From the NCBI GenBank assembly GCA_963969365.1, contig OZ017748.1, positions 3,965,001 to 4,029,000 of the forward strand: a stretch of DNA of 64,000 nt, read 5' to 3'. A program made the translations under genes and the position numbers. Every line of letters starts with the position of its first letter. The first letter of the stretch is position 1. This stretch comes from Asterochloris sp. CNOR1 (Eukaryota > Chlorophyta > Trebouxiophyceae > Trebouxiales > Trebouxiaceae). The notes beneath the pieces were generated by a model. The model was not told the DNA's origin. It did no database searches and saw only the letters and a program-made list of their open reading frames with translations. Below are positions 1 to 64,000 of this stretch, piece by piece.

Positions 1-1
1 A

Positions 2-3000
2 GCCTCTAGGGCTATGCGTGCTGACCTAGCCAGGCAGGCCATGCTGGAGACCAATGCCAAGATCAACGAACACCACAAGCAAGTCATCATGAAGGCGGCG
101 TCGGGCCCTGCAGGGCTCATTGAGGTCAGGCCTCAGCATTGGCTACCTCATGTGTGGTAGCTGAACCCAATCCTGAAAGGGTGAACCAAGTGTGGTCACT
201 GCCTTGACATGTAGATGAGACTACCAGCAGCAGCTATGTTGTCCTACTGCCACGCATATCTTGCAGCAAGCAAGCCAGCTCCTACCAGACAGCACTCCTG
301 TCAGGTGCAACTGCCTGGACACACTGATACGTTTTCTGCAGCTTGGAGCTATGTACCTGGTGCTTGGCCAAGACAAGCCTGGAAAGCCAGCAAAGAAGGG
401 CTTTGCCAAGGAAGTCTGGGATGCTGGCATGGCTGAGCTTGAAAAGCGTGGGGCTCCTGGAGTTCGGGCCAAGGTGGAGGAGATCAGCAACAGGGCACTG
501 AACACACAGTGCTTTGACATAGGGCTTCTGGTGAGCACTCTGGCAGGCTGCGAAAGCATTGTGATCCTGCTGACCCACCCTGAGCAGTGACAACAAGGGA
601 CATGTGGATTCCGGCTGCTCTGACATTCTAGTTGCGCCAGATGTTCTGGGGGGCCAGTGTTGCACAAAGCTGTCTGCCGATCAAGCTCCCAAGGTTTTGG
701 GGCGTCGCACCTTGTACCCCAGGAGGGGCAAGCGGCTCAGGGTGAGTTCAATGCATGTCTGTGGGTTTCAGGGCATTCCACCTCGTACTTCAGGAGGGGC
801 AAGCCGTTTTGGATGAGTTGAGTGCATGTCTGTCTCCCTGCAGGTTGCCCAAGCAGTTCGTGAGGCAGACGAGGCAGAGGCCAGAAGGGCAGAGGGCAAA
901 AGGGGACCGCTGCGGGATCATCGTCCTCTGGTGCTGAATCAGGATGACTTCTTGGTAGGGCCTGGTGTCTGGCAGATGCCGTTCTCTTTGCTCCATGAGG
1001 CATCACTTGATGCTGTTGCCCCTGCTTTGCCTTCTGCTCGTTTGTATTGGACCCTGGCGGGCTTCCCCTGTAAGCTGAGAGGAGTAGTGATTGACAGATA
1101 CAAATGCCCTGTGGCTCTGAGGTGCTGGGCGTGAAGGATTTTGCATGGCATGCCAGAGCATGCCTGAAATGTAGACTGAGAACATAAGATATGTTCACTG
1201 CTCTCTTCTGCACAGGGCATTAGCATCCCCTTGGCTGGCCTTGTAAGCTAATTACTCATGCTACTGTCCTGCAGCGCTGCCTGAACGTGCCCTCGGAGAA
1301 GGCGGCCAACTTCAGGAACTTTCCTGGCGTCAAGGAGAATGAGCCCAAGAATAAGGGATGCAAAGGTATGTTCCACATCACCTCAGCCCAGATCTGAGGG
1401 TGCTGTCCTTTGTGTGAGGGAGATGTCGTGCTGTCTCCCCTGTGTCTGACTAAGTCATGTCAGCAGCAGCTATGGAAGGCAAGCTGGCACCCATGTACAC
1501 ATGTGCTTAGGCAGGGCTGCCGTGCATGTGTGCACACAGCAGCTGAAAGCCTTTGTGTGCGTCAAGCACTGTAGTCCACGGGCCCAACCCTGCAAGCTGC
1601 AGCCTTGATGCAGCTGGTGCAAACAGCAGTGTTAGCTGCCTGGCAGCGCTGCACCTGCCGCTGAGCAGTCACCCACCGTGCTTATATGTGTCTGGCCTGT
1701 GCATCTCTGCAAAGAACACACACAGGCCTGGCAGTGCTGCAATCACTGTCCCGCAGCCACCTACTGTTGCCTGTGTGTGCCCTGATGGATACTGTCTGCA
1801 GGATCCCCATGCATGCCTGGTAGTACAAAACTCACTGTCCCACAGCCATCCACTCTTGCACTGTGTGTGCCTGGCAGGGACTGTCTGTGGGGGGCACACG
1901 CATGCCTGGAGGGAGGGTGACAGGTGCGACTGCCAGGGCGGGGGCGTGGCGCAGAAGCCAAAGAGTGGCAACCACACCTCCAGCCGGGTGGAGAACCACC
2001 TCAAGGACATGAAGGCAATCACTCGCCTGAAAGGTGCGGCGGCCATGACAACCGCCATGGTCATGTCACTAAAGAGACTGTGCAGAGCCTTCTTGCTCTG
2101 GAGGCTTGCAAGGCTCCCCAGAAGGCAAGAAGCCAATTGATTACATGGATGTGGGGTGGGCAATGGCACGCACAGTTTGTCTGTTGGGACTCGCGGCTGC
2201 CATCCCTGTCTCCTGCCTGCCATCCCCTCCCACCTGTGAGCTGCAGCTGTGCTTGGGATGCAATCAAGGCCTGCTCTGGTGCCTGGCCAGGCCGCATGAC
2301 TTTTTCAAACTGAGTCTTGCAGAAGTCCCTAGCGCCTGACTGCCGGCTGCAATGTGGCAGATCATCTGTAACTTGTAAAGATGCACACTGGAGCCATCCA
2401 GTTGGGCTTGCTCATAGCTGTGAAGCCACCAAGAGCCACCCTAGACATGGGAGCAAGACTGTGTCGTCATATGGTTTCTGCACAGGCGTCTGCTGCTCGG
2501 CCAGACACTTCTTCCAGTCCTTGCGACCCCTAAGCTAGAGGCAGTCTGCAGCCTGCATTGCAATAAGGCTGCTTGAGCAAAGTCTACCTGCTGTGGCATT
2601 GGCAGGCAAGCCCTAGGAATACTTTCTGTCATGTAAAGCTCGCTACAAGCTGCAGGGGCCTTGCCAGACTGGGCCAACTGCACACTGCAACTTGGGCCTG
2701 CTGACATGGCGATGACAGACTGCTACGTGCTGCTTGCAGGCTGTGAGGCATTGGCGGTGTGGCTGCCCCTCACCCGCTTTTTCACTCCCAGTGGGGCCGT
2801 TTGGCATGGCGGTGACACAGTGCAGCGTGTGGCCTGCAGGCTATGAGGCAAAGACAGTGTGGCTGCCAACAAGGGAGCTGCTGGCGTCTCGCTGGAGCCT
2901 TTCGGCGTAGCAGTGACACTCTGCTGTGTGTGGCCTGCAGGCTGTGAGTCATCGACAGTCTGGCTGCCAACAAGGGGGTTGCTGGCGCCTCGCTGGGTGT

Positions 3001-6000
3001 TCACCTACAAGAATGGGCTGTCCAGTGGGCACAACGGGTGCTATGGCAGGGTGAGTGCACCTTGCAAGGAACTGGGCTTTGTCTATCCTTTCAACTCCAT
3101 GGAAGAGCTTGTCCAGCAAGCATCATGGAGAGAGGGTTGCCTGTTGAGACTTGTGAACACTTGAACGAGGCATGATGCGTACTCTGGCGGCGTGAATACC
3201 AGGCCATCCCAGGCGTGATTGGGCGCTTCCCAAGTGGATTGTCTTGCAGGCACCACTGGTTCTGCAGCTGAGTAAGTGCCTTCTGAAATGTGCTTTGCAC
3301 TTGATGTCAAGCGCGCTGGGTTCTCATCTGAAGAAATCAGGGCATCTAGCGGGCACGACAGGGCATCTAGCGGGCGCGACAGATGCTACAGCAGAGTGAC
3401 AGCGGCTGCACTATGCTTTGCAGTCAATTCAAGCTTGCTGGCTGTTGGCTCAGACAAACAGCAGGCACCACAGCTGCTGCAGCAGGGTGGATGCCTGTGC
3501 AGCTGCTTTGTGCACTCAAGACAGGCGTGCTGGGTACTCACTATACCTGCGGCGTCCAGCGCGCACCACAGGTGCGATGGTCTGGTGAGAGCCTGTGCAG
3601 TGTGCTTTGCAGTCAGTCTCACTGATTTTCTGCTAAGAGGACCTGAGAAACAGGGTTTCCAAAGCTAATAACAGATGCTACAGCAGGGTGAGTGCCCGCG
3701 CAGCTGCTTTGTGCGCTCAAGCACAGGCTTGCTGAGGTTAAACCTGCGACGTCAAGCGCGCACCTGCCTATGCATGACTGAATATGCATTCAGGTGGTAA
3801 GGCTGGGAGTGTCTGCACCAGCACACGCTCAAGTGTGAGTTGGGGCCAGCTAGCTGGCTGTAGGTGGCAGCTGACAGTGTTATCATTGGCGCTCTGCTCA
3901 TACAGCGACAGGCTACCGGAGGCCAGGTGCAACAGCACACAGGGACTGCCTGCTTAGACGCTGGAAGCAGCATCATACAGCAAATCCAGTAACCTCATGC
4001 AGGCGCTGGCAAGAATGGGTCAGAATATATCAACCTCCATGAGCCGTCCAAGCGCTCCGCATACAAACGCCAATTCCTGAACCTTGAGTCCCATTGGCGC
4101 GGCCTCATCACTGCCATGTGCCTCTGCAGGTCGATTATGGGGATTGTGTCCAATCACTTGGCCCTCATCCCTCTGACTGCCTCAAGGACTGTCAGACCAT
4201 TGCCACATGCCCTGCAGGTGTGATGCAATGAGGCTATGTTGACCAGTTAGCCCCTCATTCATCTGACTGCCCCAAGCGCTCTCTGATTACTGCCCTGTGC
4301 CCTGCAGGTGTGGTATGATGAGTATGTGCCAACTACTGTGGGTCGGGCCGAGCCCCACAATCTGGCACTTATCCACCCCACTCAGGCGCGGGTTCTCACC
4401 ATCAGGGAAAATGCAAGGACCCAGGTCAGATATAGGAGTCTGCACGTTTCAGTGCAATCTGTTGAGGCCGGGCCAAATTGTAGCAGGCAGCGTGAATGCA
4501 GACTGACTGCCTTCCCTGCTCAGAGCACCCTGCTTGCAGCAGGGAATTATTGTGCTTATCAGGCTTGGCTCAGGCAATCTGCCACTCCTGCAGCACAGGA
4601 CAGTGATGCAAGGTAGCTGGTCTCCCCTTGTGACACCTGCATGGCTGATGAGCAGGCAAGCAACCAAGCGACAGTCACCTCCACTTCATGTGCACTGGAT
4701 TGAGCAACTTGTGGCTGCAGGGATTCCCAGACTACCATGTTCTGGTCGGAGTGACTTCAGGTGGGTCAATCCAGCTGCACACAGGCTCCTGGCAGGCAGC
4801 TGCTGACAAGATTGCACTGGACTGTTTGAGCTGCCCTGCCAGCTTTCTGCATTAGAGCAGCTGCCACAGTCTGCGGGCAGGGTTGAGCTGCACTGCCTGC
4901 CACTGGCTGCATCCTGGTGCACATGCTGCCTCTGAGCCTGCATTGCTTTTTTGCAAGATCAAGCTGCCCAGCCTGCTGTTGGCGACGGCCTGGTGCACAT
5001 GCTGTCTGCGTCAGCCCGCAGTGCTTGTGCGTGGGCTGGCGACTGCACTGCCTATCAATTGCGGCAGTCTGCTCTCTGTGTCATCTTGGGCAGCCTGTCC
5101 TGCCTATTGCAGACAGCAGCTGCTGTTCTCGCCACTTGTGCAGCCTGCCTGCGTGCCAACCCTAGCTGCTCATGCAGCATTTATCACATCACAGTGGAGG
5201 CAGACACCAGCTTTGTGATCTGTGCAGGCTCCACCTCACAAGCTATAGCTCCTGCAAATGCAGGTGACAATAAGAAGACGTGGGTTAGGCATGCGAGCCT
5301 GAAGGATCGGTGAGCCTCTGCAGTGTGCCTGTGCTGAGGTCTGCGCTGTGCATGGCAATGCCGCAATGTAGGAGGTAGCGCCGTGGCAGCCTGTCTGGCT
5401 TGGGACGCTGTCAGCACAGCGAGGTGTGCGGTCAAACAAGCAGCTTTGCATACTGCTCTCCTTGCCGGCTGTGCACTAGAGCAGGCTCTGCAAGCAGCAA
5501 GGGCCTTCCCTGCATACTGTGCCCTGGACTAGCTGTGCATGTGGACCCAAAGCACAGCAGGCCATGCCAGTGCACGTGCAGCAGAGCCTGCTGCATGTGC
5601 ACTGGCAGCACAGCCGGCTGTACATCTGCACATGCAGCTTAGCAGCCTCTGCCGACAAGTACTACTCCCTGACCTGGACTGCCCTTGACAGAAGCCAGCA
5701 TGCTAGGCTCTGCATACTCCACTCAAGCATCCAACCAGACCATATCTGTGTACACAAGGCTTCAGGGCGCCCTCCGCTTCTCAGTCGTCATTCAAGCACC
5801 TCAGTCTCTTATGGCAAGTCAACATCCCTATACGGGGACCCACCACATCCCCTCTGCCTACAGGTACCAACAGATTGGCAACGCAGTGTCCCCCCTGGTG
5901 GCGGCTGCTTTAGGCAGGGGGCTGCTGGTGGCGGCACGGCGCGAGGCGCCCACAGCCGTGGAGGACACAGTGCAGTATTTGCCCTCGCCGGAGCTGGCCG

Positions 6001-19515: not shown

Positions 19516-19625
19516 AGGATTGACTTAGCACAATGAAATCAGTCACTGGGCATATGTTCTACTGAGCAGAGGGAATGGGGGAATTGCAGCTGAAACTGAC
19601 CAAAACTGACAGAGGACTTTGAACC

Positions 19626-21625: not shown

Positions 21626-21922
21626 CTGATGTCAACAGGCCGGTTGCTGCCCAGTCCTGCAAACACCTGGCAAGCTCCTGATAGTCTTGAGCTTTTATCA
21701 GACCAGATCAGGAGCTGCTCGTCCCCGTTTGCACCACTCAGCTTCAGATGCGTAAACTGTGTCTTCTTTTCGACTTGCCTTCTTGTTCTTTCAACGTGAC
21801 GTTGGCTTGAATTGGCGGACTCTTACCAGCAGCGGTTGACAGCAGTTGACAGAGGGAGTACCCATCTAACTGTCGGCACCCACTCCGCAAGACTTGCCTT
21901 TGCCAATCACACTGCCATCAGC

Positions 21923-28269: not shown

Positions 28270-31200
28270 ATGGCGAACAAAATTAGCCTCACAAGCTCTG
28301 GAGCTGTCAAAGCAGCCGGAAGCACCTTGGATGAGCAAGCACAGCATCCAGCTTTCCCCGCTCAGACCAGGAAATGGCTTCGAGTGGACGACAAGGGCAA
28401 GAGCACATTGGTCAAGGTGACAGAGCAAGCTCAGCACTGCAGATTGCCGCCACCATGCCTTCCTTGGCACTATCGGCTGCCTCTCAGGATAGTTGATGTA
28501 GTAGATTCCCCCCTTAAGCTGAGTTACAGTGGCCTGACTGATAGAACTCCAATATGCTGCCTGCTTTGTGTGATGGATCTCCAAAACACGGCATGCCAGT
28601 CTGCACACACTCAAACGAAGCACCCTGCAACATGTGCTCAGCAGAGTTGCGTGCCACTATGAAGGAGGTCACTTTATCTGCAAGCCGGCCCAAAATGCTG
28701 CCTACATGTATGAAGTTACAGATACCCCCTGGCTGCAGACGATAGCAGCATGTCCGGGAGGCACCGATATCTAGATTGCACTGCAATAGTGGACATGCAT
28801 TTAGCCCCTTTGCAATGCTCTGCGAGCAGTGCTGCATCAGAGAGCGCCTGCCTGCAGAGAGGGCCATCCAACACATGCAGAGCCGCGGCTTGCTTGCTGC
28901 CAGGCAACGGCAGCAGTACAGGCTGTTGACTCCCACCAAGCACCTGCTGCAGCAGGATACTGCATCCTGGATGCACTCTGCACGCCCTGCAGATGGAGCA
29001 GTGCCAGTAGGTGACCCTCCCTCAAGGTTGGGGAGAGAAGCTGATGCCGGGCGCAATGCCCTTCCCCGCTGTCGCAGCCAGTTGAAAGCCGGCCACTTAG
29101 ATGATGTGCATATTTGGACCATTTGCGTCCTGCCTGTGCAGACAAAGATGCGCCAGCTACACCCCTCTGCCCACCCTGTGCCCTGCAAAGTTGCCAGTGT
29201 CCTCCCTCTTCTGCCCTGCAGATGGAGAAGTACCAGCTGGTCGCCCACCTGAACATCCCTTACAGGGACCTGCGCATACTGGACCCTCTGGCCCCAATCC
29301 CATACCCGACGACCATCTTCATCCGCGAGAAGGCGCTCGTGGTCAACCTGGAGTCCATCCGCATGATCATCTGCCAGGACCAGGCAAGCCTGCAGTGCTG
29401 CTGCTTGAGCACCTGCCAGGACCAGGCAATGGCACTGCCGGTAACTGCCAGGATGAGGCAGGACGTGCCTGCCCAGTCCGTGGCAGGTGCACCAGGCAAG
29501 GCAGCCAGGAATACCTTGAACTCAGATGCTTGCAAGGAGGATGACACACCTTGTGACTGCTGCGACGGCTGCTCGAATCAAGGCCACCCAAGTTTCAGAC
29601 GATCATCACGTTTGCCAGGGTTAGGCAAGTTGTTGGGTGAGTAGCTTGGGAGCAAGCCCACAGTGTTACCCTTCATGAGGTCCCAGCGTCTGACAGGAGC
29701 AGGCAGGGTGCTGCATGAGCACCAGCCAGCACCAGGCTGAGCGCTGCATGAGGTCCTGTCCAGGTCTGCGGCAGGTGCAGCAGGCAAGGCAGAGCTGGTC
29801 TCACCTGCTTGCGTGCCTGGGACTGCCACCGCAGACGCTGGTGCTGAGCATCCCCTTCTTCGCGGGATTTGATTGCTGCTGCTGCAGGCACTGGTGCTTA
29901 GCGTGCCGGACCCGTCCCAGCCCTTCAGTGGCGTGGCGCCCACACGGGACCACCCTTTCATCAAGGAGCTCATCAGCAGGCAAGGCATCTGTCTGTCGGG
30001 CAGCCACAGCTGAGGGCAACCTGAAGCGCGGCGCTTCACCCAGACTGCACTGCTAGACATGAGACCATGCTGCCTTCTTGGTGGGCACGGCATCTGCAGG
30101 GCTGTCTGACTGCTGTGGTACAGCATCAGCTCACCAGCATTCATTCAGCAAGGGGCGATACAGCATCAGCTAGTGGGCAGCTGCACCGCAGTCTGCAGCA
30201 GACCTTCAGTCTTCTAAGACCTCTCCTGTGGCCGCTGGCTGCATTGCTGCTGCGCCACAGACTAAGATCACCAGCGGGCAGGCCAGCTGCATTATGCAGA
30301 AGCGCAGATACGTTACAGGGATCAGCTCACTGGGCATTGCCGCTGCGGGATGCAAGTTGTGAAGATCCCTTTCACAATCACAGAATAAAGGGCCTGCATG
30401 AGCAGCGGCAGCAAAACTCAGGGGCCATCTGTGTTTGTGTGGCTGATGCAGGCGCAGCCTCTGCGTGTTGGCCACCACTCATGTTGAATTCCTATGACGA
30501 CCCGCCTGCCCTGTTCGTCATTTGGCCGCTGCGCACCCTTAGATCTTAGAAATTGCTGCTGCAGGACTCAGCTCTGCCTGAGCGTCCCCTGCCACGTATA
30601 GGCTGCACACTTCAAGTGTGAAGAGCCTGTGCTGCAGGATAGAGTTCTGTGCAAGTGGGCATGACGATCAGGGCCTGCCCTATGAGCTACATGCATTGGA
30701 GGTTCCACTGGCCACCACAGTGCGCCTGTTTGAGAGCGAGGCCCTCCAGCTGGAGAAGTTGCTGCTGCCCTCCCTGGAGCGCCTGTCCGCCCGGGTGAGC
30801 AGGGTTTAGGGTTTGACAGGGACAATTTGTAACTTCTGATGCGCATCTGCGTTGTTGCTTGGCAGCAAGGCTGTGCAGCCAGAGTTTTTGCTGCTGCCCT
30901 CCCTGGAGCGCCTGTCCACCCGAGTAAGCAGGCCTGCCTGTATGTTCTGATGCGCATGCGTTGCCGCTCAACAGCAAGGGTGTGCAGCTCAGGCAGTCTC
31001 TGCTGCAACCCCTGGAGCGCCTGTTTGCGCTAGTCAGTGCGAGGAGGCCCACCACTGGATCTGCACAGGTGGTTTGCATGCATGCTGGGGGAAATGGGTG
31101 GGCAAGGTGTCAGTGTGACTTGGGCTGTGGATGCGCCTGTTCGACGGCCGCTGGAACTGCCCAGGTGAGCAGCATGCAGCTGGTGCATGCTGGGGGTGGG

Positions 31201-34200
31201 GGGATTCTGGACCAAGCAGGGCTTCAGTGTGAGTGAAGTGTGGATGCGCCTGTTTGACAGCAACCACTGGACCTGCTCAGGTAGTCAGCATGCAGCTGAT
31301 GCATGCTGGGGGCCGGGTCAGCAGGGTTGCAGTGTGACTTAGCTGTGGATGCGCCTGTTTGACAACAAGGCTCTGCACCTGGAGCAAATCGCTGCAGCCC
31401 TGCCTGGCGTGTCTCTATCTTTGGGTAGTGAGCTTTGGTTTTCATCAAGATTCACTGGGTCTGTAGCTCATAGCGGCACCAGTGCTCTGCGCTGCATGGG
31501 TCACAGTGTCATGGAGCTGGGCTGCAGCCTGCTGCTAGTCCGACCAGGCGCAAATAGAGGGCCAAAATGCCTGTTTTGCAGCACCTGGCGCAGACGCAAT
31601 TCAGCAGCAGAGCTGCCTGGGCAGCAGCACAAGCAGTGGTCGTCACTCCTCAGTGTACCCCTGCAGGTCTCCAAGCGAGAGCTCCTGTCCATCCAGAGCA
31701 GCAAGGCCACCCTCAATCGTCTGGTGGAGCGCGTGCGCAGAGCCAAAGAGGCAAGTGCTGGGCTACCTTACTCCGAGAATAAGGGCGCTGGCGTCGACCT
31801 GTATGTCCCACATACATGCCTGTCATACCCTTGCTGCAGCAAGCAGCCTGTGTCATGCACGCCCAGCATCCCAGGTTTTGGGATCGCTGCATTGAAGCAC
31901 CGCCAGGCCAGGCGGGCACTGCAAGTCTCGCAAGTCTGGCAGATGCTGGGTGCAGCCTTGAACACCACTGCGCTGCACTGGTGCTGTGCACAGCTCATAG
32001 TTTCTGAGGAGTGCAGGTGCTGTAATGTATTCCAGACAAGGACAAAGACATGCAGGAATTCTTGATCATGGGCTATGGGCTACATGGACCCTGGGCCACC
32101 TGGCTGGCAGCCTTGGAGGATACATGCCGCCAGCAGCAGGTTTCAGCCTTCATGCTTGTCCCATTATGCAGGTGCTGGAAGCTTCTGCTGGTGGAAGTGA
32201 TCAGCACTTGTTGCCAGGCCTTGTACTTGGTGCATCAATGCTGCAGGTGCTGGAGTCCATCTTGGACGATGACAAGGACATGCAGGATTGTTATCTGGGG
32301 CGCAGGGCAGCGCTGGCGGCAGCCACAGAGGCGGCTGGAAAGGATGCTGAGCCCTCAGAGGGGACTGCAGGGGGCCTGACTAGTGCCCAGCCAACTGTAG
32401 ACTTGCCAGAAGGGCAGCCTGCTGCTGCTGGTGAGGCCAGCTGGGCCACCGAGCCAGTGTGATTGTGGCATGGGCTGTCCCTGGGCTGTCCCCCCCCCCC
32501 CCCCCCCCCCCCCCCGGTCCCCGACTGCAGAGCTGCTGAAATGGGGTGCCATCGCTGGTGAGGGGGCTTGACCTGCCTGTGGACCTGCCGGAAGGGCCGA
32601 CTGCTGCTTTTGATGAGACTAGCTGGGCCACCAAGCCAGTGTCAGTCCAGCACAAGCTGCGGCTGGCGCTCCCTGGCAAGGTGTCCGCTCAGCGCCATCT
32701 TTTGAGCGCAATGGTGGACATCATTGCATCTATGCCCTCTGGGCCTGCATCAACCACCAGCAAGCATCAGCCACCAGCCAGCACAGCCTGTTTTCCTTGC
32801 ACATAGGGTAGCTGCAGACGCCCTCCGGCAGCGGGCAGCAGCCTGAGCTCTGCAGAGCGGACTCCAGGAAGGCATTTCCAGCATTCCATGCGCGCTTCCT
32901 CCCGGCCAGGATCACCTCTTCAGACTGCTCCTAGCCCTTGCAGGAGTGGGCAGCTTAGGTGCATCAGCATGGGCCAGCACCACCTTTACTGACTGCTCCT
33001 CTCTCTTGCAGGGGGCGGCGACATAGGTGCATCAGAGCCAGGCAGCAGCTTGGCTGGGGATCTGCTGAGCGCAGTCCGGGAGGCTCAGGAGGCTGCATTG
33101 GAGTCCGACTCTCATGCAGAAGCTCGGCAGGCTGCTGGTGAGCGCAGCTGTGGTGATGTAATTTCTGAGAGGGCTCATCACCTTTTTCACAGCCTGCACA
33201 GCACATCCTACAGCACCAGTAGCGTCTGACGATAGTCAGCTGCTTGAATTTCGATAGTATGTAGTGCGGGCCTGCAGGGCAGCTGGCGGGTGTGGACACT
33301 CTCGGCGGGCTGCCCCTGTCTGCCCTCCTTGAGAGTCATGTCTCTTCAGCAGACTCTATACTGCATGGCAGATGCCCCAGCTACAGCACAGCCTATTTCC
33401 CATTGCCTGACTGATCCCAGACATGGGTACTGCTTGCCTGCAGAGCAGCAGGCAGGAGTCGACACTCTCAGTGACCTGCCTCAGTCCCGGCGGGGTACAG
33501 CAGACATTCAGTCAGGCCGGGTCACCGACGATATTGGGCGGAGGCTGCCCCCACGCCGAGCATCGTCCTTGCGGGTGCGCTCATTGCTTTAGACTGGTGA
33601 ACAGGTTTGGTGACCCAACAGAGAGGCGCCCTCTTGAATTGCAGGGTAGGCTGGACACTGTTTTTCATTGACCCGCTCAGATGGCACTGTTGTCTGTCAA
33701 CCCCAACAGCTGACGCTTGACCTGCCCGGTCCAGCACATGTTGCGCACAGTGTGTTGTTGACATCATGTCAGCGCTGTGTCTGATCCTGGACAGGACAAT
33801 GCTGCAGATGTATGCAGCCCACTGAGAAGGGAACGGGTGGGCATTTTGGGGCAGATTCTCAATCCAGGAGTGTATTGTGTGGCCAATGCCGAAGGCCAGG
33901 GCGCAGACTGATGCATGCCACAGCTGTGCAGGGAGGCGTGAAGCTGCTGCGACAGCTCACCCTGACGCGAGGCGATGCAGATGCCATTGCAGCTGGTGCG
34001 CCAGGGCTGCTGGCTCTGCTCAACGATGAGGGGCAGGTCACAGGTGGGGGCCAGCTTACCCATCATGTGCCTAGTTTGCAGCAAGGTAGAGCTGTGCACG
34101 CTGGGAATTGCACAATCCTGCACTGTGCACTACTCATGGCATGCACTCAAAGGGCACCTGAGCTCAGCACATTCAAGCTCTGGGGGCATGCGTACCGGGA

Positions 34201-36124
34201 GCAATGCTTCCAGCTTCTGCCTCACCCTGGTGGTGTGAGTTTGTGCACAGCAGTTACGCAGCGCCTCGCTGCCTGACAACTGCTTGACCTGCAGGTGTGA
34301 CAGCAGCAGTGAATGTGGTGGACCCCCACAACATTGAGGGCTGCGAGGACCTGCTGGAGTCCTACTTCATGCAGGTCAGCTGCCACAGCCAGAGCTATTT
34401 GGCTGTTCAGCCTGCAGGCCTTCAGGGCTGTCTGCTGGAACCTCTGATGGCTTACAGCACATCTGATAAATGTGTCAGCCTGGCATCATGCAGGGCAGCC
34501 TACCTGAGGTGCTTGCAGCAGGTAGGTAATCTCAGCCCAGCAGCATGATGGATAGTCTGGCTGAGGTGCTGTCAAAGGGTGACCTTCCAGCCCACCAGCA
34601 TGTAGGTCAGCCCGCCTGAGGTGCATGCAGCCCACATCAGTTCCCACCCAAAAGCATGCAAGTCAGCTTTCTGACAGCCAGCAGCAGCAGTCATCAGCTG
34701 CCGGCATGCAGCTCAGCCTGCTGGAGGGCGCTTCAGCCAGCCTTTTGGCAGCAGGCAGGCCCACACGCATCAGGTGCCAGCCTGCTAGCCAGTTAGTGGT
34801 GGGTCAGAAAGGGCATGCAGCTGCCAGTCATCACAGGACATCACTCATCAGCCATTCTGCAGCACTCATCTTCTGAGAACATGGTAGCCTGACTGGGGTG
34901 CTTCATGTTCTGCTGCCTACTGCTCTTGTTCTGGTGCCTGCCACCCACCAGGACTTGTGGTGTTGTGGCTGCTGTGCAGGTGGACACCGTCCTCAGCAGA
35001 TTGATAGCGCTCAAGGAGCGCATAGAGGGCACAGAGGCCCTCATCGAGATCGACCTGGACCACAGGCGGAATGAGCTGGTGGCATTTGACTTGGTGAGGC
35101 AGTGGGAGGCCTGCACCCAGCAGCACGGTATACACATTGCCGCCTGGCTGGACTGGCCTGCCCTCAGCGCACAGCGAGCTCCTGGTGCCTGCCCGTGAGG
35201 CAACCAGGGCTCTGCTGCGCCTATGAGTGACAGCAATGATGCTGTGCTCAGCAGGACCCGTCTGCAGGGTCAGTGCTGTTGGTGCCTGCTTGTGAGGCAT
35301 GTGCCCAGGCAGCTCTTCTGCAGTGGACACAACCTTCACCCTGGACACCCCTTTCAAGGTCCCCACCTCAGCCAATGTCAGCCTGACATTGCACAGCATT
35401 AACCCGCATGTTGGGCAGAGCAGCCCAGTGTATGCTTTTGGTAGGCTTGCCCTACATCTTGACTCTGCCACCTTGGGCCTCTTGACACCCTTGTCTCTGC
35501 ACCTTTCAGCAGCCTGTTGCATGGCAAGGCAGTGTGGCCGGCCTGCGAGCGCTTCGTCACCACCCGTTTCTCTGTCTGCAGGTCATGACCATGGTAACTG
35601 TGGCATTTGCGCTTGTGAGCGCCATGTCAGGCCTGATGGGCATGAACTTGTACTTTGCGGTTACAACATTCCCACTGGTAAGCAGTAACTGTACAGTGCA
35701 CAAGTAGGGTGCGCAGCATGCCATGGCATGGTGCACCAAATGCATGCCATGCCGGTGGCGGTGGTGCTACCTTGCTTGGGCCTGACACCACACTGCATGT
35801 TACTGGCCAGCTACTTATAGTCTTGCAGTCATGTGCTTCATGCTCTCTGTGGCACTGGCCGTGAGTGCACCCAGTAGCAACATTCAGGTGGTGCCCTGCT
35901 ACCCAGTTGCATGCCAGACATTGCTGAGTTCTACCACCTGGATGATGCAGTGGTCCTGGTGGATAGCAACAGGCATCAGCCTGACAGCTGGCATCCTGCT
36001 CTTGGGCGCCTTTGTTTACCATGCTCGCAAGAGGAGGCTGCTGTTCATACCCACACCTCCTGTTGTGCCTGGTGCTGCACAACCAGACCCTGTTATGGGC
36101 CAGAATGTTGCCATGGTGCACTGA
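28270..36124 (+). CDS. MRS2: MRS2/CorA-family magnesium channel
   Basis: Thirteen exons join in phase to about 563 residues: 28270-28416, 29222-29383, 29888-29979, 30638-30794, 31667-31750, 32247-32430, 33012-33137, 33444-33574, 33932-34043, 34295-34374, 34980-35093, 35582-35677, 35918-36124. Family landmarks: RKWLRVDDKGKSTLV; LNIPYRDLRILDPL; FIREKALVVNLESIRMII; LPYELHALEVPL; ILDDDKDMQDCYLGR; CEDLLESYFMQVDTVLSRL; then the first membrane helix VTVAFALVSAMSGLM running into the Gly-Met-Asn selectivity signature, and a second helix IATGISLTAGILLLGAFVY. Known: forms a pentameric Mg2+ channel of plastid, mitochondrial or other membranes. The linker exons 33012-34043 have no counterpart I recognise in plant proteins. 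Introns 2, 3 and 5 use GC donors. The last exon could start at 35888 rather than 35918. Confidence 0.95.
30839..31420 (+). repeat. Tandem ghost array of an MRS2 exon end
   Basis: Copies of the second half of exon 30638-30794 and its donor fill the next intron. A near-exact echo CTGCTGCCCTCCCTGGAGCG occurs at about 30890 with donor GTAAGC near 30923, another at about 31000, and shorter copies beginning GATGCGCCTGTT(T/C)GA at 31130, 31240 and 31347. Spacing is near 110 bases. The ghosts include donor-like CAGGTGAGCAGCATGCAG near 31155. Confidence 0.8.
32013..32300 (+). repeat. Three copies of an MRS2 exon start
   Basis: TGCAGGTGCTG begins at about 32013, 32168 and 32243. The first copy also keeps ACAAGGACAAAGACATGCAGGA, echoing GACGATGACAAGGACATGCA of the real exon at 32247. 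Spacings 155 and 75. Confidence 0.75.
32490..32515. repeat. 26-base poly-C tract
   Basis: An uninterrupted run of C lies in MRS2 intron 6, between a sequence (32395-32460) and its diverged copy (32573-32645). Both copies share GACCTGCCGGAAGGGC-like, then AGCTGGGCCACC(G/A)AGCCAGTG. The run could be an assembly or sequencing artefact in length. Confidence 0.85.
34369..34720 (+). repeat. Ghost donors after the MRS2 exon ending at 34374
   Basis: The exon-donor junction CATGCAGGTCAGC recurs as CATGCAGGGCAGC (34489), CATGTAGGTCAGC (34601), CATGCAAGTCAGC (34654) and CATGCAGCTCAGC (34706), the last three about 52 bases apart, with shared flanks (CC(C/T)GCCTGAGGTGC). Confidence 0.7.
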
Positions 36125-52478: not shown

Positions 52479-55400
52479 ATGGCCCCAAATACCGAAATGG
52501 ATGTGCAGGATGGCATTGCGGTCATCACACTGTCCAACCCCCCTGTGAACGCCCTCCATCCGCATGGTCAGTTCCGGGGGAGCCCCACGATGCCAGGCCA
52601 CCCTGCATGGGCTCAGATCGTTTAGATGGCCCTGAGATGCATTGCACTGGCCGCAGCAGTTGCCCCAGCATAAGCAGCGCACTCAGGCACGCATGTGCTT
52701 ATGCACACTGGAGCTGCTGAAGCCACAAAGCTGTGCAACAGAGCATTCAAGTCCTGGCGCCTGCTGGTATGATGTCACAAGTTCATGTTTCCAGCCTACT
52801 GTCCACTGGCAGGCCAGGTGGTCGCTGCATAGAGTGCAGCTCAAGCTGCTTGAGTCATCCTGGGATTGACTTCCGCGCAGAAATCCAGTCAAGAAAAGCT
52901 GCATTCATTGAGCGGCCTGCTGCGACCTGCACGGTGGGCCATCTGTGCACACAGCCCATTAGTGGCATGCACAGGAGCTGCTGCCTGCATATGTAGCCAC
53001 CATGCAATGGGTGTCTCAAGACGAGCACCTCTTTGTCCCACCCCTACAGTGTTGGCGTCTCTGCCCTGGCAGAGGCACATGGCCCATTAGGGCTCTTACT
53101 GCCTCAATAATGCAGCAAGAGCTCTGCCATGTCTGCTGCAGTGTCAGCATGAGGGGCACAAGGCCGACAGCTGTTGCACATTTGTGCTGTACCCACCTGC
53201 CCTGCCGTCTGGGTGCAGTGCTGGTGCCTGTGTCCAATTGCGCTTGAATGCGCACAATGGTCTATCCACCACTCCAGTCCTGCGCTGACTGCTGTTTCAG
53301 AAGGCATGTTGACCCCAGCTGCCCAGCCCTGCCATGCAGTGGTGGCATCTCCATCTGAGCACTCACTTGCCCTGGGTTTCCAACCTTCATTGACATTTGC
53401 TGACCCATCTGCCGCTGGTTGCAGTGCTGGCGTCCCTGTCCAACCACGCGCGCGAGGCCCACAACCGCTCCGATGTGGCAGCCATCGTGGTCACCGGCGG
53501 CAGCGGGCGCTTCAGCGCGGGCTTTGACATCCAGCAGTTTGCGCAGGTGGGCCTCAGGGGCCACCGTATTGATGTTGCGGGCATGTGCTGCTCTGGACAT
53601 GTACCTCTGTGTCTTCCAGGCAGCGCCTGGTCCGACTGCATGTGGCTAGGGCGTCAGGTTGTTCATATGACCTGAGCAGCACCCGAGACGCTGAGGTCAG
53701 GTGAGGAGCGAATGCCAAGCAGCTGCTGCTCTGTTACGCAGCTTGTGAGTCTGTATGCTGATGGGCTCAGCATCACTGATTTTGGCCCTGCTGACAGTGC
53801 CTGCCTGACGCCTGCCTGAAAGTGCACACATCATCTGCGAGGGCTCTGGTGGAGTGTGCGTCAACAATTTCAGGTGTACATGTCTGGAGGGACTAGCATC
53901 AAGTCAGTATCAACAGGTTCTCCACTGATTGCCTTTCAGACACTGCTGTTACTGCTAAGGTCTGGTGACAGAAGGTCCCTCAGCGCAGCAGTGTTGACCA
54001 AGATCAACTCTTGCGATCAGCTCCCTCATGCCTGCAGAAGTCTGGCGGGGGCGGCATCGACAGCAGCATCAACGAGGCCTTCTGCCAGCTGCTGGAGTCG
54101 GGGCCCAAGCCCACAGTGGCAGCGGTGGAGGCCATCGCCCTGGGGGGTGGCCTGGAGGTGGCCATGGCGTGCAATGCGCGTCTGTGCACCCCTGGGACGA
54201 GGCTGGGCCTCCCCGAGCTGAGCCTAGGCATCCTGCCAGGTTTTGGAGGGACACAGCGGCTGCCGCGTCTGGTGGGCCTGCAGAAGGTGAGCCTGTTGGG
54301 TACAGATGAAGAAGTTGTGGTGTGCGTGCATTGGCTGTGTTGGCTTTGGGGCATGCCAGAGCTGCCGCCTCTGGCGGAGCCTGCTGAGATTGAGCCCATG
54401 GCAGGATGGTGTGTTGTCCAAGCATCGGCTGTCCAGGTCTGGGGGACACAGCTGCAGCCGTACCTGGTGGGTCTGCAGACTGCTGATTACGGGATGCCAG
54501 GTGGGGGCTGAGACATGAGTGGTACAACAGCAGCACTCATTGAGAGGTCCATGATGCGGCAGCAGCCTGGTGGGGCTTGAGACATGAGTTGATACACACA
54601 GCAGCATTGATTGAAGGGCCCATGATGCGGCAGTTTGCCCCCACTGGTCACGGCTGGCAGGGCTTGGACGAGTCCTGTGCCCAAGTCAAGCTTGTCAGCA
54701 CGCCCGGGGTCGGACAGCACACTGGCTGCCGCTGTGGAAGGCGTGAGGGTGCTGAGTGATACTTTGGAGCATGGGCCATGCCCGCGGGTGTCAGGAGCTA
54801 AGCTGGCGGGGAGAGGAGAGCACTCAAGCTGCAGTTTGGATGCCATACCGGGGCCCACTTGACCCGTCTTGCAGGCCTGCGAGATGATGCTGACCAGCAC
54901 CCCCATCAAGGAGGGTGCCGCCCACAAGCTGGGCCTGGTGGACGCAGTCGTCCCCAAGGACAAGCTGCTGGCAGAGGCCAAGAAGCTGGCACATGAGCTG
55001 GCAGCCGGGAGGGCGCCCCGCCAGCAGAGCCTGTACAGGTGAGAGCCCTCCCAGAGCAAGAGGCCTGGGCAGGCGGGAGGCAGGTGGGCCTGGCCTGTTG
55101 GTGCGGTCTGTGACCTGTTGCAGTGGTGAGAGAGGTCACAGTGCTGGCTGAGGCCTTGCAGCCTTCTTGAGGGAGGGCGCCCCGCCGGTATGCTTGCGTG
55201 GGCAGGCCACATGCTGGCTGCATCACCCATGGTGAGGGCATGGTCCAACACAGCATAGTCTCTGGTGCATTGAGATCGTGTCGTGGGCTGTGGTGCACTG
55301 TGGTGGTCCCTCAGTCTCTGTTGACTGTTGAGGTTGCCACTCACTCTGTGGTGCATTGAAACTGTCCCCTGGACCAGCTGCTGGCTCAGGCCATGTATCT

Positions 55401-58400
55401 TGCCCATACCGTGGCAAGGTAGCTTGGCTACAGGTTGCTGTGCCTGGCATGCTCAATGGCTGATGCTTGCCCACTCTCACAGAGCAAGGCAGCCAGGCTG
55501 GAGGCTGCCCAGGCCCCTCATTCATTGGTCGCATCAAAGGCAGAAGCTCATTGTCCAATGCTGCCACCTGCAGAACAGACAAGCTGGAGCCCCTGGGGGA
55601 GGCACTGGCCATCATCGACTTTGCCAAGGCGCAGGCAGCCCAGCGTGCGCGCCACCTGCAGCACCCCCAGTTCTGCCTGGACGCTATCAGATACGGCGTG
55701 GAGCACGGCGGCCTGGCGGGGCTGAAGAAGGTGCAGATGGGTTCAGTGAAGGCCTATGGCAGAGAGCCGCAGGCTTGCTGTGTGACGACAGGGCTACCCG
55801 GGACATGCTGAAGCTGGTTTTATTTCATGCCAATTTTATGGAAGCGGCACGTGGGTCTTGGAGGCATAAACTGGTTATGCTTGCTGGGCAGCCCAACCCT
55901 GGGGTCATTCTTTTGCTCGCTGCCTGTTCTCAAGTGTGGCAATGCTGTGCTGTAGCAGCGGCTGCCACCCTGCAGGAGATCTCCCATCAATTTTATTGTG
56001 TCTGCAGGAGGGCGAGGCCTTTGCAGCGGCCGCTGCCCTGGACACCCACAAGGCGCTTGTGCACATCTTTTTTGCCCAGCGGGCGACCAAGAAAGTTAAG
56101 GGCATCACAGATGCAGGTGGGCTGGTGTGCAGCTGCTGTGGGGTGCACATGCTCAGGTTGTGTGCCACTGGGAAGGTATGCAGCCTAACATGTGATAGCG
56201 GGCTCATCTGAGGCTGGAGCATCTGCAAGGCCAATGTGCGATTTTGTGGACCAGTGCTGTCAAAGTGTCTGGGGCAGGTTGCCCGGTGTGAGCCTGTGGC
56301 CACGGTGCACCAGTTGATGTTTGGTTCCGGCCTGGCAGTTGCTGAGTGCATGAGGTTTGGTTGACGTGGCATTTGTGAGCAGTGAAGATTTGCCTGGGCA
56401 TTGTAGAGCTCTAGCAGCCACACCTGGGTCACATGCCCAGCCTGTGCAGGCTTAAAGCACGCACATGGCACAAATGGCAATCAGGGCCGACTGATTCTGC
56501 AGCTGAATCACTGCAATACCTGCACATTGACCGGCTGAGCAGGAAGTAGGCTCACCTGTTAAACAAGCCGTTTGCTCCTGCACTTAGACGTCCACCAAAG
56601 CCTGCACATTGACCAGCTCAGCAGGTAGCAGGGTAGTGCGCGCCACATTCAGTTCTGCTGATGCCCTCCAGGTCTGAAGCCACGCCCAGTCAAGAGCGTG
56701 GCGGTGCTGGGCGGCGGGCTCATGGGCAGCGGCATCGCGACTGCCAGCCTGATGGCTGGGATGAGCGTGGTGATTAAGGAGGTCAACCAGAAGTTTCTGG
56801 ATGTGAGTGCTGCACACCTGTATCCACAGAACCCAATCGTAGGCAGAAGTTCGTGAATGTGAGTGCTGCACACCTTCGTCTACGAAACCCATTTGCCTGG
56901 ACAAAAATGGACTGCAATTTGCTGAGTGATAGGGTTGGGCAGGCGGTGCCTTCGTCAGGTGTTGTCTGTACGTGCATTGCCGCTGCGCAAGTGGCGTCAG
57001 TCGCTGCCTCCGCCCTCCTGCTTCAGCAGTGTTCACCCCCATGTCACTTGCATACACCCGGCTTAGTGGCTGTCAGGCCTGATCTTTGCACTCCCTGGCG
57101 TCCAGGCAAATGTTCTATAACAAGCCAGCACCCCTTGCCTTTCCTACAGGGTGGCCTGCAGCGCGTGAAGGCTAACCTGATGAGCCGCGTCAAGAAGGGC
57201 GCCATGAGCCAGCAGGTAGACCTTCTCACCAGTGTTTCATGGAAGTCTTGCTGTCGATGGCTGTTCATATGCATGCATGTCCTGTTGTGGAGCTCCTCTG
57301 CTCTCAGACTGTCACACCTCAGCAGAGAGGCGCTCTGGCCCAGCGCTGCGTCAGGTGGACAACATCCACATTCAAAGGCATGCAGTGAGTGAGCTTGCAA
57401 ACAAGCAGCTTGCCTCATCTTGCCTCTATAAATGTTTGATGGGAATGTGATGTTGAGCATAGGTTGCTACGGGCATCCTGAGCAGGCCTAAGGGCATTGA
57501 ATGGTCTGATTATAACGCCTGCTTCACCCTGCTTGACAGCAGGACTTCTTGTGGGCTGCAGGCAGCCGATGGCATTCTGGGCAAGCTCAAGGGGACCCTG
57601 ACCTATGATGACTTCAAGGACGTAGACCTGGTGGTGGAGGCTGTGATAGAGAACCTGGACCTGAAGCAGAAGATCTTTGCAGGCAAGCCTTGTTGTGGTG
57701 TACCGTTTGTAATGTTCCCTTTGTGATGCAGACGAATTGGGCTGGTGCTCGTCATTGCAGTGCATCTGTTGGTATATGCTGTGTACAAAGCTGTAGACTT
57801 GAAGGAAGACAATCCTAAATGGGACAGGAGGACCGTGCCTTTCTTTGAACCCGCCGCTCAGCCTGTCAGCGTTTGCAGCTCATGGTGTTGACAGTGGGAA
57901 GGGTGGCTCAGTTGCCCAGGCTCACAGCAGTCATACTGTGGGCTCATCCACCTTCTCGCAGTGTTGCCTGGCGCAATGCAGCACGGCAGGTCAAGCCTCA
58001 GGCTGCTCAGCGCACTGAGCAGTGTGCCTTAGCAGCGCACATTGCAGGGTTGGGCTTCCGCGTCTGAAGGGTGTGGCACAGGCCCTGGCTGGGCTGCAGA
58101 AGCTGTTCATGCTCACAGCTTTAAAGCCTGGCCACTTTGTCCTGCACAGGTAGGAAAGGAGTGCTCTTGAAGTGGGTGACCTAGATCAAAGACTGCCCCA
58201 GATCAAAGGCAGCACTTCGCTGGTGCACATGCACCCGTTGCCAACCGACTGCAGAGCATATTGGGTAGTCAAGGTCATGCTGTCAACAGACATGTCCCCC
58301 GTCGACAAGGCAATCGGCATTGGGGGCCTACATGCTTTTCAGGTTTTGGGCTGCCAAAGTCACCAACAGCCTTGAAGCCCACCACCATGCACAGCAGCCC

Positions 58401-61037
58401 CTGCAGCTGGTTGGACTCTCTGCCCATGCCTGCAGAGCTGGAGCAGGCTTGCAAGCCCGAGGCCATCCTGTCGACCAACACATCCACCATTGACATTGCA
58501 CTGATCGCGGGCAAGATGAAGGCACAGGACCGCATCATTGGTGCCCACTTCTTCTCACCTGCACACATCATGCCCCTCCTGGAGATTGTAAGGACGGACA
58601 AAACCAGCAAGCAGGTGGGCGGAGTATGTGGATGGGCCATCACTGGGTGCGTGAGCCAGCAACAGTGACCCACAAAGCAATGACCGGCCGGAAGCTGGCT
58701 GAGATGGCACCTTTCAGCAACACACATGAGGTTGCCTTGGGAGCCCGCTTCCAGTACTCTCCAGGTGCCCCATGGCGTTGCCCTTTCTTGAAAAAAGCCG
58801 ACCCTCTGCTGCAGGTTGTGCTGGACATACATGTGCTGATCTGAGCCCCATGGCGTTGCTGTTGCCTGAGCATGCTGATTCTCTGCTGCAGGTTGTGCTG
58901 GACACCCTGGAGTATGGCAGCAAGATCAAGAAGACGCCTGTGGTGGTGGGCAACTGTACAGGTAGGTCTGGGGCCACATCGGTGCTGCCAGTATCCTGCC
59001 TACAGTTGCATCATGCTGATAGGAGCTGGAGCTTGCTCAGCTGTAAAATTAGCAAGAGGCATTCCTGCCTTCTATGCTGAATTGACAGAGAGTTCAGGTC
59101 CCTTCACCTGTTGAGCTTTGTGTTAACGGACCCATCTCCCTTGCTGAGGAGGCGGCGCTAGCTCCTGTTCCAGGCCTTGATTTTGTTTGCAGGGTTTGCG
59201 GTCAACCGCGTGTTCTTCCCCTACACAATGGCAGCTTGCATGCTGGTGGACATTGGACTGGACCCCTACAGCATTGACAAAGTCATTGCTGCTGGCTTTG
59301 GCATGCCCATGGGGCCATTCAGGTGAGATTTGCTGTCCCCTGGTTGCTTCAGCTTGTGGGCGGAATCTGATCTGTGTGGCCAGCCAGATCATCACCCCCA
59401 GAGTTTTGCTATGCAGGCTGAGCGACTTAGTGGGCGCAGACATCGGGCTGCACGTGGGCGCCAACTTCCACCAGTCCTTCCCCGACAGGGTGTACCAGGC
59501 GCGGATCATTCAGTTAATGAATGAGCATAAGCGCCTGGGGGAGAAGACAGGCAGCGGCTTCTACAAGTTTGACAAGAAGTGAGCGGGGTTGGGCGTGCTT
59601 GGCTGTGTGGGCAATGCAACATCTGCATTAGCTGCTGAGCAGGCACAAGCCTCTTGGGAGCAAGACTGGTGCCACCTTCTATAAAGAAGTGGTGGTCGCT
59701 GATATGCTAGTCTGCAAGTACCTATCGATGTGCAGGGGATGCAGCTATTTACTTCGTAGCTGCCTGGATTGTCAAGCCTCTGTGACTCTGATAGGGGCAC
59801 TGCTTGTTTGACTGCACTTGTGGCTGGCTGTGCTGTGGTGCAGCTTGTGATGCAGCATCTGTGGCTCGCCAGCTGCAGGGCACCCTCCTGGCGATAAGTC
59901 TTTTTGCTTGGCTGCATCTGTGGCTGGCAGTGCAGTGGTGCAGCTGTTGATGTTTTACCTGGCGGCTGTGCGCCCCACTTTCATGCTGTAGAAGCACACG
60001 TTTGTTGGGCTGCACATGTGACTGACTGCATTCATGAATTGACTCCAACTGTGCTGGTGTCACCTTTGATGCACGCGTGCTGAAAGTCGGCTGCATCATG
60101 TTGTCGTGCAAGGCTGCTTCAGCTGTTGCAGCGCTGGTTTGTGAGAGCTGTGGCATGCACAGGCTGCAGCTACAGGGCTGTGACATTAATGTCAATGGCC
60201 TGCTGGGCTGTTGCAGGCGCAAGGCACACCCTGACCCTGACATTGCTGCCCTGGTGGAGCAGAGCAGACGGGATGCAGGGCTGTACAAGGGGAAGAAGCC
60301 GCCAATGACCCCTCAGGTGGGTTTTTCCTACCGAAGCGGTCCACTCCAGTGCAAGAGCTGTCCTGGCCGCACTGCTTGTGAAGGTGCCAGGCCTTCTGTT
60401 GACCTTCAGCGAAGCACTGTGGCCATCTCGTTTGGCAGCCAGGTCTCTGCTGGCATGATTCCGTCTGTCCTCTGCTCTGCAGGACATCATTGAGTTCATC
60501 TTCTTCCCTGTGGTGAATGAGGGCTGCCGCGTCATTGACGAGGGCATTGTGGACAAGCCTGCAGATCTGGATGTGGCCACAGTCATGGCGATGGGCTTCC
60601 CACCATACAGGTGTGCTGCAGCAAAATGACTGGCTCAGTATGGGGCCCTTTAGTAGTCAGATGCAGCAAGCCGACTGCTACGTACCTTACATTGCTGACC
60701 TACACATATGTCTTCTTCTCTGGGGACTTTGAGGGACGGGGGATCTGCACAAAGTCAGGGTGCCTTACTTCCATGAAGCCTACAAGACCTCTGCCTGGAG
60801 AAGGCCAACAGGCCTGTGCTACGTCTATAACATTTGCCTGTGCTCTGCAGGGGTGGGCTCATCAAGTGGGCCGACCTGGTCGGGCCCAAGCACGTGGCAG
60901 CAAGGCTTGAACAGTGGTCACAGCAGTTTGATGCTGCCGGGCTGGCTGGCTTCTTCAAGCCTTGCGCCTATTTGCAGAGAGCTGCACAGAATGGCACCTC
61001 TCTAGAGGCGGGCAAGGGTGGATCCAGCAAGATGTGA
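52479..61037 (+). CDS. MFP2: Peroxisomal multifunctional protein (enoyl-CoA hydratase / 3-hydroxyacyl-CoA dehydrogenase)
   Basis: Sixteen exons join in phase to 720 residues, the length of plant MFP2/AIM1: 52479-52566, 53425-53546, 54038-54286, 54875-55038, 55574-55730, 56008-56116, 56672-56802, 57150-57215, 57562-57682, 58436-58614, 58892-58961, 59193-59322, 59417-59578, 60217-60316, 60483-60610, 60851-61037. Hydratase half: [59 protein letters not shown] with the catalytic Glu pair. Dehydrogenase half: [17 protein letters not shown] (NAD-binding), [48 protein letters not shown] with the catalytic His, [21 protein letters not shown]. Ends GGSSKM, a peroxisomal targeting signal type 1. Known: catalyses the hydration and NAD-dependent oxidation steps of fatty acid beta-oxidation. 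Intron 9 has a GC donor. Confidence 0.97.
53043..53450 (+). repeat. Three copies of an MFP exon start
   Basis: TGCAGTGCTGGCGTCCCTGT at 53421 (real) is echoed at 53213 (TGCAGTGCTGGTGCCTGTGT, followed by CCAATTGCGC) and at 53045 (TACAGTGTTGGCGTCTCTG). Confidence 0.7.
56789..56890 (+). repeat. Tandem copy of an MFP exon end and donor
   Basis: CAGAAGTTTCTGGATGTGAG then TGCTGCACACCT (donor 56803) is repeated as CAGAAGTTCGTGAATGTGAG then TGCTGCACACCT (donor-like 56859), 56 bases on. Confidence 0.85.
58765..58915 (+). repeat. Tandem copy of an MFP exon start
   Basis: CCCCATGGCGTTGC...CTCTGCTGCAGGTTGTGCTG is present twice, with exon-like starts at 58815 (decayed, hits a stop) and 58892 (real), 77 bases apart. 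Confidence 0.85.
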
Positions 61038-63053: not shown

Positions 63054-63838
63054 GTGAGCCAGTGCTGGGGACTGCTGCTGACACTGGCCTGCTCCCAGTG
63101 GAGCACACCCCTTTCGGCGGCTGCTGCCTTTAAGGGTGGTGGGCGCTGACTTGCATAGTGCACACTTTGACAAGCTGGATGTGGGTACCAGAGGTGCCAT
63201 TGCTGTACAAAATTGTGGGGTTTTTGTCAAGAACCCTGGGGTTGGATGGGCTTTTGAGGGGCCCGACTGATCTGGTAGCCTGCTGGGACCAGGGGTGGGG
63301 AAACAAGGGGAGTGGTTGAGTGTGACTGGATCTGCTGCTGATTATCTGTGGGCAGCTGGGTTCAACTGGCCTGCTGGGGGCCAATGCTTGAAAGCTGCAT
63401 CGCCACAGGCCGGGAGCTGCTGGTGCTGCCAAGGACCACGCCCACGTGTATCTGTTGCCTGCCGCAGTGCTTGTCGCAGGCAACAGGGGAATTCTGTTGC
63501 TTGCTACGATGCTTGTGGCAGGCAACAGGGGATGCACTCCGACATGGCAAGCTGCCAGGCTGCAGCTTGGGTGCAGCCTCTGACACTGTCAGCACAGGCA
63601 ACTCAGCTCCCACCAAGCTGGAAGAGAAGGGATGAATCTAGAGGCATCTGGGTCGGCCAGCCTGTCCTGCTTGGGCGGCTGGCAACCTCCACAACCACTG
63701 CTGAGAGGGACATGCAAGGGCACAGCTGGCTTGGTGCAATGCAGACCCGTTCTGCTAAGCTCAAGGATGACAGCTCTGGTCACTGGGTGGTTCGATGGGA
63801 CCATCATGTGGCTTGAGGACACCTTCAGCTGAGCAGAA
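63054..63838. other. Unresolved downstream region of the reductase-like gene
   Basis: Should contain further introns and exons, but I find no stretch matching the family. It contains a tandem pair of hairpins at 63452-63528. Confidence 0.35.
63452..63528. repeat. Two tandem hairpins
   Basis: CTGTTGCCTGC (63452) pairs with GCAGGCAACAG (63476); 42 bases on, CTGTTGCTTGC (63494) pairs with GCAGGCAACAG (63518). The whole 42-base unit is duplicated. Confidence 0.85.
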
Positions 63839-64000
63839 CTAGTTGCGTGCCAAACTTGGCGTAAGCATGTACACTTGCTGTGGAGTATGTGAGCTTTCTG
63901 GCCAGGCAGGTGCAGTTGTCTCGGCATGCACATGGAGCAGGTCAGCAAGCAGTAGCTGCATGATCTCCACGGTTCCAAAGAGGGGGTTGAAGCTGCTGCC
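63839..64000 (-). CDS. Possible terminal exon of a gene entering from the right
   Basis: Minus-strand frame open from the window edge to TAG at 63839: SSFNPLFGTVEIMQLLLADL, then LHVHAETTAPAWP, ending TPSLARN. It reads like the last exon of a gene starting beyond 64000, but there is no family match and only 53 residues are visible. Confidence 0.3.
   Translation of the reverse strand, partial: GSSFNPLFGTVEIMQLLLADLLHVHAETTAPAWPESSHTPQQVYMLTPSLARN

Follow-up and report, generated by a model that had tools for sequence, protein, structure and literature searches.

Do introns grow by stacking copies of the edges of their own exons? The question is raised by a 64,000-nucleotide (nt) stretch of the genome of the green alga Asterochloris sp. 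CNOR1 (contig OZ017748.1, positions 3,965,001 to 4,029,000; hereafter the window), in which a first-pass annotation had described the introns of at least ten genes as filled with tandem copies of the adjoining exon-plus-splice-site sequence, local, in the same orientation and different from intron to intron. We addressed it in three window genes covered by homology, which encode an MRS2-like protein, a CMT-type methyltransferase and the peroxisomal multifunctional protein MFP2, and in a panel of HSP70 and CCT genes. About a quarter of the introns examined carry a decayed copy of a neighboring exon edge (hereafter a ghost), which lies next to its parent in the same orientation, as expected of a local tandem duplication. 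The description holds for some of the repeat clusters and for the homology-set window genes; the other window genes are represented by ab initio models only, and "filled" applies to a few introns, not to introns in general.

Ghosts of neighboring exon edges in introns

Because ab initio models bring gene-finder bias, the exons of the main test were set by homology. Specifically, MFP2 and six HSP70 genes were delimited by spliced alignment (the latter to one moss protein), and the introns of eight CCT genes by hidden Markov model hits plus a gene finder. Each junction was represented by a probe of 45 exonic and 35 intronic bases, and the remainder of its own intron was compared with equal lengths of other genes' introns. 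At p ≤ 0.01, 27 of the 200 tests (100 introns) detected a copy in the own intron, versus 2 of 200 in antisense. Significant copies of their own exon edge were held by 25 of the 100 introns (MFP2, 5/14; HSP70, 12/61; CCT, 8/25), and by 17 of 75 when the CCT genes, in which four junctions at odds with the profile had nonetheless been retained, were left out; intron 0 of locus L034 was removed from the set. A probe of 40 exonic bases alone was positive in 16 of 102 introns at p ≤ 0.005 (antisense, 2) and in 0 of 99 when set against a nonadjacent intron of the same gene. At p ≤ 0.01, the corresponding counts were 20/205 tests, 4/205 in antisense, 4/159 for mid-exon probes and 0/199 for nonadjacent introns. 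Ghost-bearing introns were longer than the others (median of 570 versus 359 nt; 25 versus 75 introns; p = 4e-4). The MRS2-like and CMT-type genes gave 11 positive tests out of 25, versus 0/25 in antisense.

Comparison of the window with shuffled sequence bore out the local direct repeats claimed for it. At a score of ≥18, there were 92 local same-orientation repeat matches (83 once near-identical ones were merged), versus 1, 0, and 0 in three Markov shuffles, 0, 1, and 0 in three local-block shuffles, and 1 in inverted orientation. At a score of ≥20, 76 matches were found at all 400 offsets from 20 to 419 versus 1 at 200 sampled offsets from 1000 to 3000. The repeats form 51 clusters spanning 12,146 of the 64,000 nt; pair density was 16.6 per 10 kb, with 11.6% of bases covered. 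Eighteen other 10-kb samples (L003 to L020) held 2 to 27 pairs per 10 kb, covering 1 to 18% of bases, and zero pairs at the distant offsets sampled in them; the eight CCT loci held 0 to 20.6 pairs per 10 kb. The window is thus above average yet not unique, since the densities of other samples overlap it. Offsets of the 230 nonredundant pairs had a median of 116 nt, with 93 at 60 to 119 nt and a tail to ∼400, near the period of 50 to 130 first proposed. Chance, base composition, and a common splice consensus were excluded as sources of the matches by the shuffles and the antisense, nonadjacent, and mid-exon controls. Locus L021, part of contig C20, was excluded from the repeat classes; this contig is 110,056 bases long, near the 110,932 given for the A. 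glomerata mitochondrion.

Ghosts in three genes of the window

The richest case is the MRS2-like gene, in which 8 of 22 junction tests passed, in 6 of 11 introns. Its protein, with exons fitted to protein P0241, differs from the latter at six places past the N-terminal part, as counted from the alignment; the label of P0241, jgi/Astpho2, presumably denotes the Asterochloris phycobiont strain Cgr/DA1pho. The end of the upstream exon recurs in four significant copies within intron 30795-31666 (872 nt); two more weak matches there were not significant. An acceptor match at 30891-30934 overlaps one of the donor ghosts and may be due to chance. The features of this gene are as follows.

30638..30794 (+): MRS2-like exon, parent (3′ end plus donor) of the best array; identical exon in spliced alignments to P0241, P0242, and P0243; Pfam MRS2-like on the predicted protein
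30856..30932 (+): copy 1, exon end plus donor; 81% identical, with GT intact, p = 0.003 versus other genes' introns
30973..31037 (+): copy 2, exon end plus donor; 69%, p = 0.003
31245..31328 (+): copy 3, exon end plus donor; 62%, p = 0.003
31350..31414 (+): copy 4, exon end; 78%, p = 0.003
32012..32057 (+): ghost of an acceptor and exon start (parent in use at 32247); p = 0.002
32577..32642 (+): ghost of an exon end and donor (parent in use at 32430); AT in place of the donor GT, p = 0.002
32913..32967 (+): ghost of an acceptor and exon start (parent in use at 33012); p = 0.002
33261..33320 (+): ghost of an acceptor and exon start (parent in use at 33444); p = 0.002
34655..34685 (+): weaker copy, region of the donor used at 34374; score 33, p = 0.002
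29689..29729 (+): ghost of an exon end (parent near 29384, exact donor uncertain); p = 0.002

The donors at 29384 and 31753 were placed a few bases off, which makes the match at 29385 uncertain; both probably belong to GC-AG introns, at about 29385-29888 and 31754-32246. An intron of this gene also contains a run of 26 C, at 32490-32515.

DNA (cytosine-5)-methyltransferase chains of solved structure are matched by the CMT-type gene; we take the best of these to be a plant chromomethylase (CMT). The later part of its exon at 2941 aligns weakly to those chains. All three junction tests passed, at junctions chosen after the repeats had been seen.

2683..2895 (+): two ghosts, period ∼101, upstream of their parent acceptor and exon start at 2941; score 104, p = 0.002
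3551..3609 (+): ghost of an exon end and donor (parent at 3050); p = 0.002
4097..4232 (+): two ghosts of an acceptor and exon start (parent at 4308); 4097-4161, p = 0.002; 4162-4232, repeat match with 4252-4322

In MFP2, a significant copy of an own junction was found in 5 of the 14 introns tested. The protein is 77% identical to that of Trebouxia sp. C0010 and 81% identical to two JGI proteins.

52479..61037 (+): MFP2 gene, 16 exons; spliced alignment to P0001, P0003, P0004, and P0008
53174..53248 (+), end approximate: ghost of an acceptor and exon start (parent in use at 53425); intron 0, 79% identical, p = 0.0025; repeat 53209-53237 versus 53415-53443
54422..54479 (+): ghost of an exon end (parent donor at 54286); donor part unaligned
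55366..55416 (+): copy of exonic 54953-55003, in the next intron; offset 413
56274..56309 (+), end approximate: weaker copy, region of the donor at 56116, mostly intronic; intron 5, p = 0.0025
56844..56891 (+): ghost of an exon end and donor (parent in use at 56802); GT intact, offset 56
58797..58827 (+): ghost of an acceptor and exon start (parent in use at 58892); AG intact, offset 77

For intron 57683-58435, a GC-AG intron fits homology best, and the donor after 57682 was assigned GC by hand.

Decay of the ghosts

Sequence divergence between ghosts and parents was assessed on 24 homology-anchored alignments (172 tests, 86 introns, 22 of them positive; a set without antisense control). Mismatches were spread almost evenly over codon positions 1, 2, and 3 (22.8, 21.7, and 22.7%), and 56 of 67 insertions/deletions (indels) break the frame, unlike what would be expected of duplicated exons evolving as coding sequence. 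In a larger set of 133 exon-ghost pairs, some of them from ab initio exons and some sharing a junction, the values were 24.7, 22.6, and 28.7%, and position 3 exceeded positions 1 and 2 by a factor of 1.21 (confidence interval [CI], 1.10 to 1.35). This mild excess can be explained by change in the exon itself. Wholly noncoding pairs differ at 21.6% of positions; in-frame exon-exon pairs, with 32 mismatches in 131, are too few for comparison. With the exon taken as ancestral, C>T/G>A changes affected 28.9% of CG sites (111/384), 8.2% of CHG sites (67/818), and 10.7% of CHH sites (142/1333). Ghost decay thus resembles that of noncoding DNA, with CpG methylation probably behind it. The change from CG to TG/CA is about three times as frequent as change at other C or G sites, which suggests CpG methylation; the window itself holds a methyltransferase gene.

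Retention of the splice-site cores, noted at the outset, was not supported as anything special: GT/AG is kept in 11 of 19 aligned ghost sites, and the remaining dinucleotides of these alignments are kept at 62%. Split by type, AG is kept in 6/10 and GT in 5/9 (7/10 and 2/5 in the narrower 200-test set). When ab initio models were used, AG persisted in 38/48 ghosts (control, 56/110) and GT in 17/32 (control, 35/72); we treated this AG excess as gene-finder bias. An apparent loss of ghost donors, seen by eye, failed to hold up, and the ghost donor of L030 intron 11 reads GT or GC because the alignment is ambiguous. A strength at or above the 10th percentile of real sites is attained by 7 of the 23 copy sites with an alignment, and the intron background already supplies ∼3.7 donor-like and 3.0 acceptor-like decoys per kb, so that ghosts as a large source of cryptic splice sites are not supported. 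The idea that they supply new exon sequence fares no better, given their noncoding decay. Neither did boundary shifts leave a sign between MFP2 and its two closest relatives, P0001 and P0003, from which no indel within 6 amino acids of any junction separates it. Comparison with P0004 and P0008, which are more distant, shows a single near-junction indel, of 1 and 2 amino acids. The six HSP70 models, 37 to 88% identical to one moss HSP70, show four near-junction indels of 1 to 4 amino acids.

Origin of the ghosts

We consider it likely that short local tandem duplications are widespread in noncoding DNA and that those crossing a junction survive, with one copy decaying as a ghost. The noncoding DNA of this alga would gain tandem duplications of tens to a few hundred bases, mostly 60 to 120. 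Inside an exon, such an event would usually be removed by selection because it would usually change the protein; inside an intron, it would only add length. A duplication crossing a junction would preserve the message if the spliceosome stayed with the copy abutting the intact exon, and it could persist because the original junction would still work, as the conserved proteins suggest. The second copy would stay behind within the intron as a ghost, decaying as noncoding DNA with an excess of CpG-to-TpG/CpA changes, and repeated events would lengthen introns and leave arrays of tandem ghosts, as in the four-copy intron of the MRS2-like gene.

The lineages in which introners were mainly found include green algae (PMC9860276). 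A dispersed mobile or introner-like family would place like sequence in many unrelated introns. Four arrays searched genome-wide matched at their own place only (the search scores the best candidates and skips very common words), none of the 51 window clusters matched elsewhere in the 343,000 nt examined at E ≤ 1e-5, and the 0/99 nonadjacent introns given above point the same way. The absence of such a family, as first proposed, is borne out in the sequence searched, and we assign this origin next to no probability. That ghosts serve as alternative exons or splice sites is scarcely probable: the 7 of 23 sites within the range of real ones would allow it, and a self-trained gene finder once fused the MFP2 ghost beside 58815 to its exon as an extra piece, but the even mismatch distribution, the frame-breaking indels, and the ordinary retention of GT/AG argue otherwise. 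That self-trained order-4 model seemed to overpredict exons and was replaced by an order-2 model trained on homology exons, which recovered 55/55 CCT hits and 14/16 MFP2 exons exactly, MFP2 and CCT being its training set. The introns themselves might have been born by tandem duplication of exonic AGGT-containing segments, a process documented elsewhere with the same kind of duplication (PMC3443670). Under that model, the intron should begin with a copy of the downstream exon start and finish with one of the upstream exon end; judged by position, 0 of the 27 best hits were so placed. The HSP70 paralogs L031 and L032 share eight intron positions, phase included. At position 61, the L031 intron (638 nt) has a ghost, and that of L032, at 83 nt, is too short to hold one; at position 160, a ghost occurs in L031 only, and at position 382 in L032 only, the latter on the exon-only probe. 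These three intron pairs, together with the layout, suggest that the intron is older than the ghost, although the ghost may have been lost from the other paralog; birth by duplication is, in our judgment, highly improbable.

A further alternative is that duplication is targeted to splice junctions, e.g., by a transcription- or splicing-linked break, which would make Asterochloris junctions hot spots for short tandem duplication and let introns lengthen chiefly through stacked copies of their own edges; much of the intron sequence would then descend from neighboring exons. In an equal-size test (probe, 80; target, 200; windows overlap one another), 24 of 163 junction windows were positive versus 38 of 654 intron-interior windows, a ratio of 2.5 (CI, 1.4 to 4.8, introns resampled), with antisense counts of 3/163 and 4/654. 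The interior duplications come from 10 and 12 of 68 introns, one figure per direction. Exonic probes were positive at 15/85 exon ends and 9/83 exon starts (antisense, 2 each). On ab initio models of 27 sequences, 347 repeat pairs comprised 178 wholly noncoding (about half), 72 junction-crossing, 44 exon-to-noncoding, 4 exon-exon, and 49 other pairs, versus 211, 43, 51, 9, and 32 expected from random placement. The crossing excess was marked in the 18 samples (42 versus 23.9 expected) and slight in the window alone (19 versus 15.6). Ab initio exon edges are, moreover, pulled toward strong ghost sites, and the exon copy changes slowly, so that exon-ghost pairs remain detectable longer. From the codon-position ratio of 1.21, slower exon decay would predict a factor a little under 2, which may cover most, not provably all, of the junction excess. 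Targeting to junctions is unlikely in our view. Intron growth by boundary duplication, as proposed at the outset, agrees with the locality and adjacency of the ghosts and with the longer introns that bear them; that it is specific to the boundary is not supported, since interiors duplicate too, although a junction bias may exist.

Against widespread duplication sieved by selection, the reading we prefer, count both junction excesses and the mild position-3 excess. Exons also harbor some duplications, as mid-exon sequence is sometimes copied into the adjoining intron (the 4/159 above) and 4 of 62 exon-internal tests were positive. Contiguity of the copies is visible for part of the pairs only: the ratio of repeat length to offset is ≥0.8 in 38 of the 230, 0.5 to 0.8 in 39, and <0.5 in 153. 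Finally, L022 contained zero repeat pairs.

Relation to known routes of intron change

The way in which introns lengthen without transposons is seldom seen. In this genome, a legible, directional record of it survives in about one in four homology-anchored introns. The age and decay of each copy are measurable because the coding exon provides a slowly changing reference, and rates of intron growth, ghost splice-site decay, and junction bias would become measurable in one compact genome. That introns can be gained by tandem duplication is established (PMC3443670; PMC4974935, one boundary-crossing case in potato), with Gao and Lynch (2009) and Hellsten (2011) reportedly cited on the matter. This route shares with our ghosts a short local tandem duplication with duplicated splice signals, but its birth layout is unseen here, and the paralogs suggest that introns predate the copies (PMC3443670). 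In the potato RdRp gene, a tandem duplication across an intron-exon boundary likewise copied the splice signals; that single case made a new intron, whereas the many found here apparently lengthen existing introns, with the copy decaying (PMC4974935). Internal tandem repeats in human segmental duplications also alter gene structure, being described as minisatellite expansions in recent paralogs, half of them protein-changing, in contrast to the single or few decayed intron copies described here (PMC2812944). Introner elements too add to a genome's intron content, but as dispersed copies of one element, whereas the present copies are private to each junction (PMC9860276). Genome-scale intron lengthening by own-junction copies was, by title or start of abstract, the subject of no paper among the matches listed from the open literature, a weak negative, as subscription journals lie mostly outside that search. 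The related A. glomerata genome is given as 56 Mb, with 9 introns per gene and ∼5% repetitive DNA (PMC6652019).

Other repeats

Two HSP70 family matches of equal score and length lie 25 kb apart (C13:1549656-1549835 and C13:1574821-1575000), perhaps by recent segmental duplication. In the window, a tandem array with a 33-nt unit and about seven copies occupies 62562-62794. Arrays with 60- and 72-nt periods, both divisible by three, lie at 25654-25892 and 26400-26642 in a predicted minus-strand coding region.

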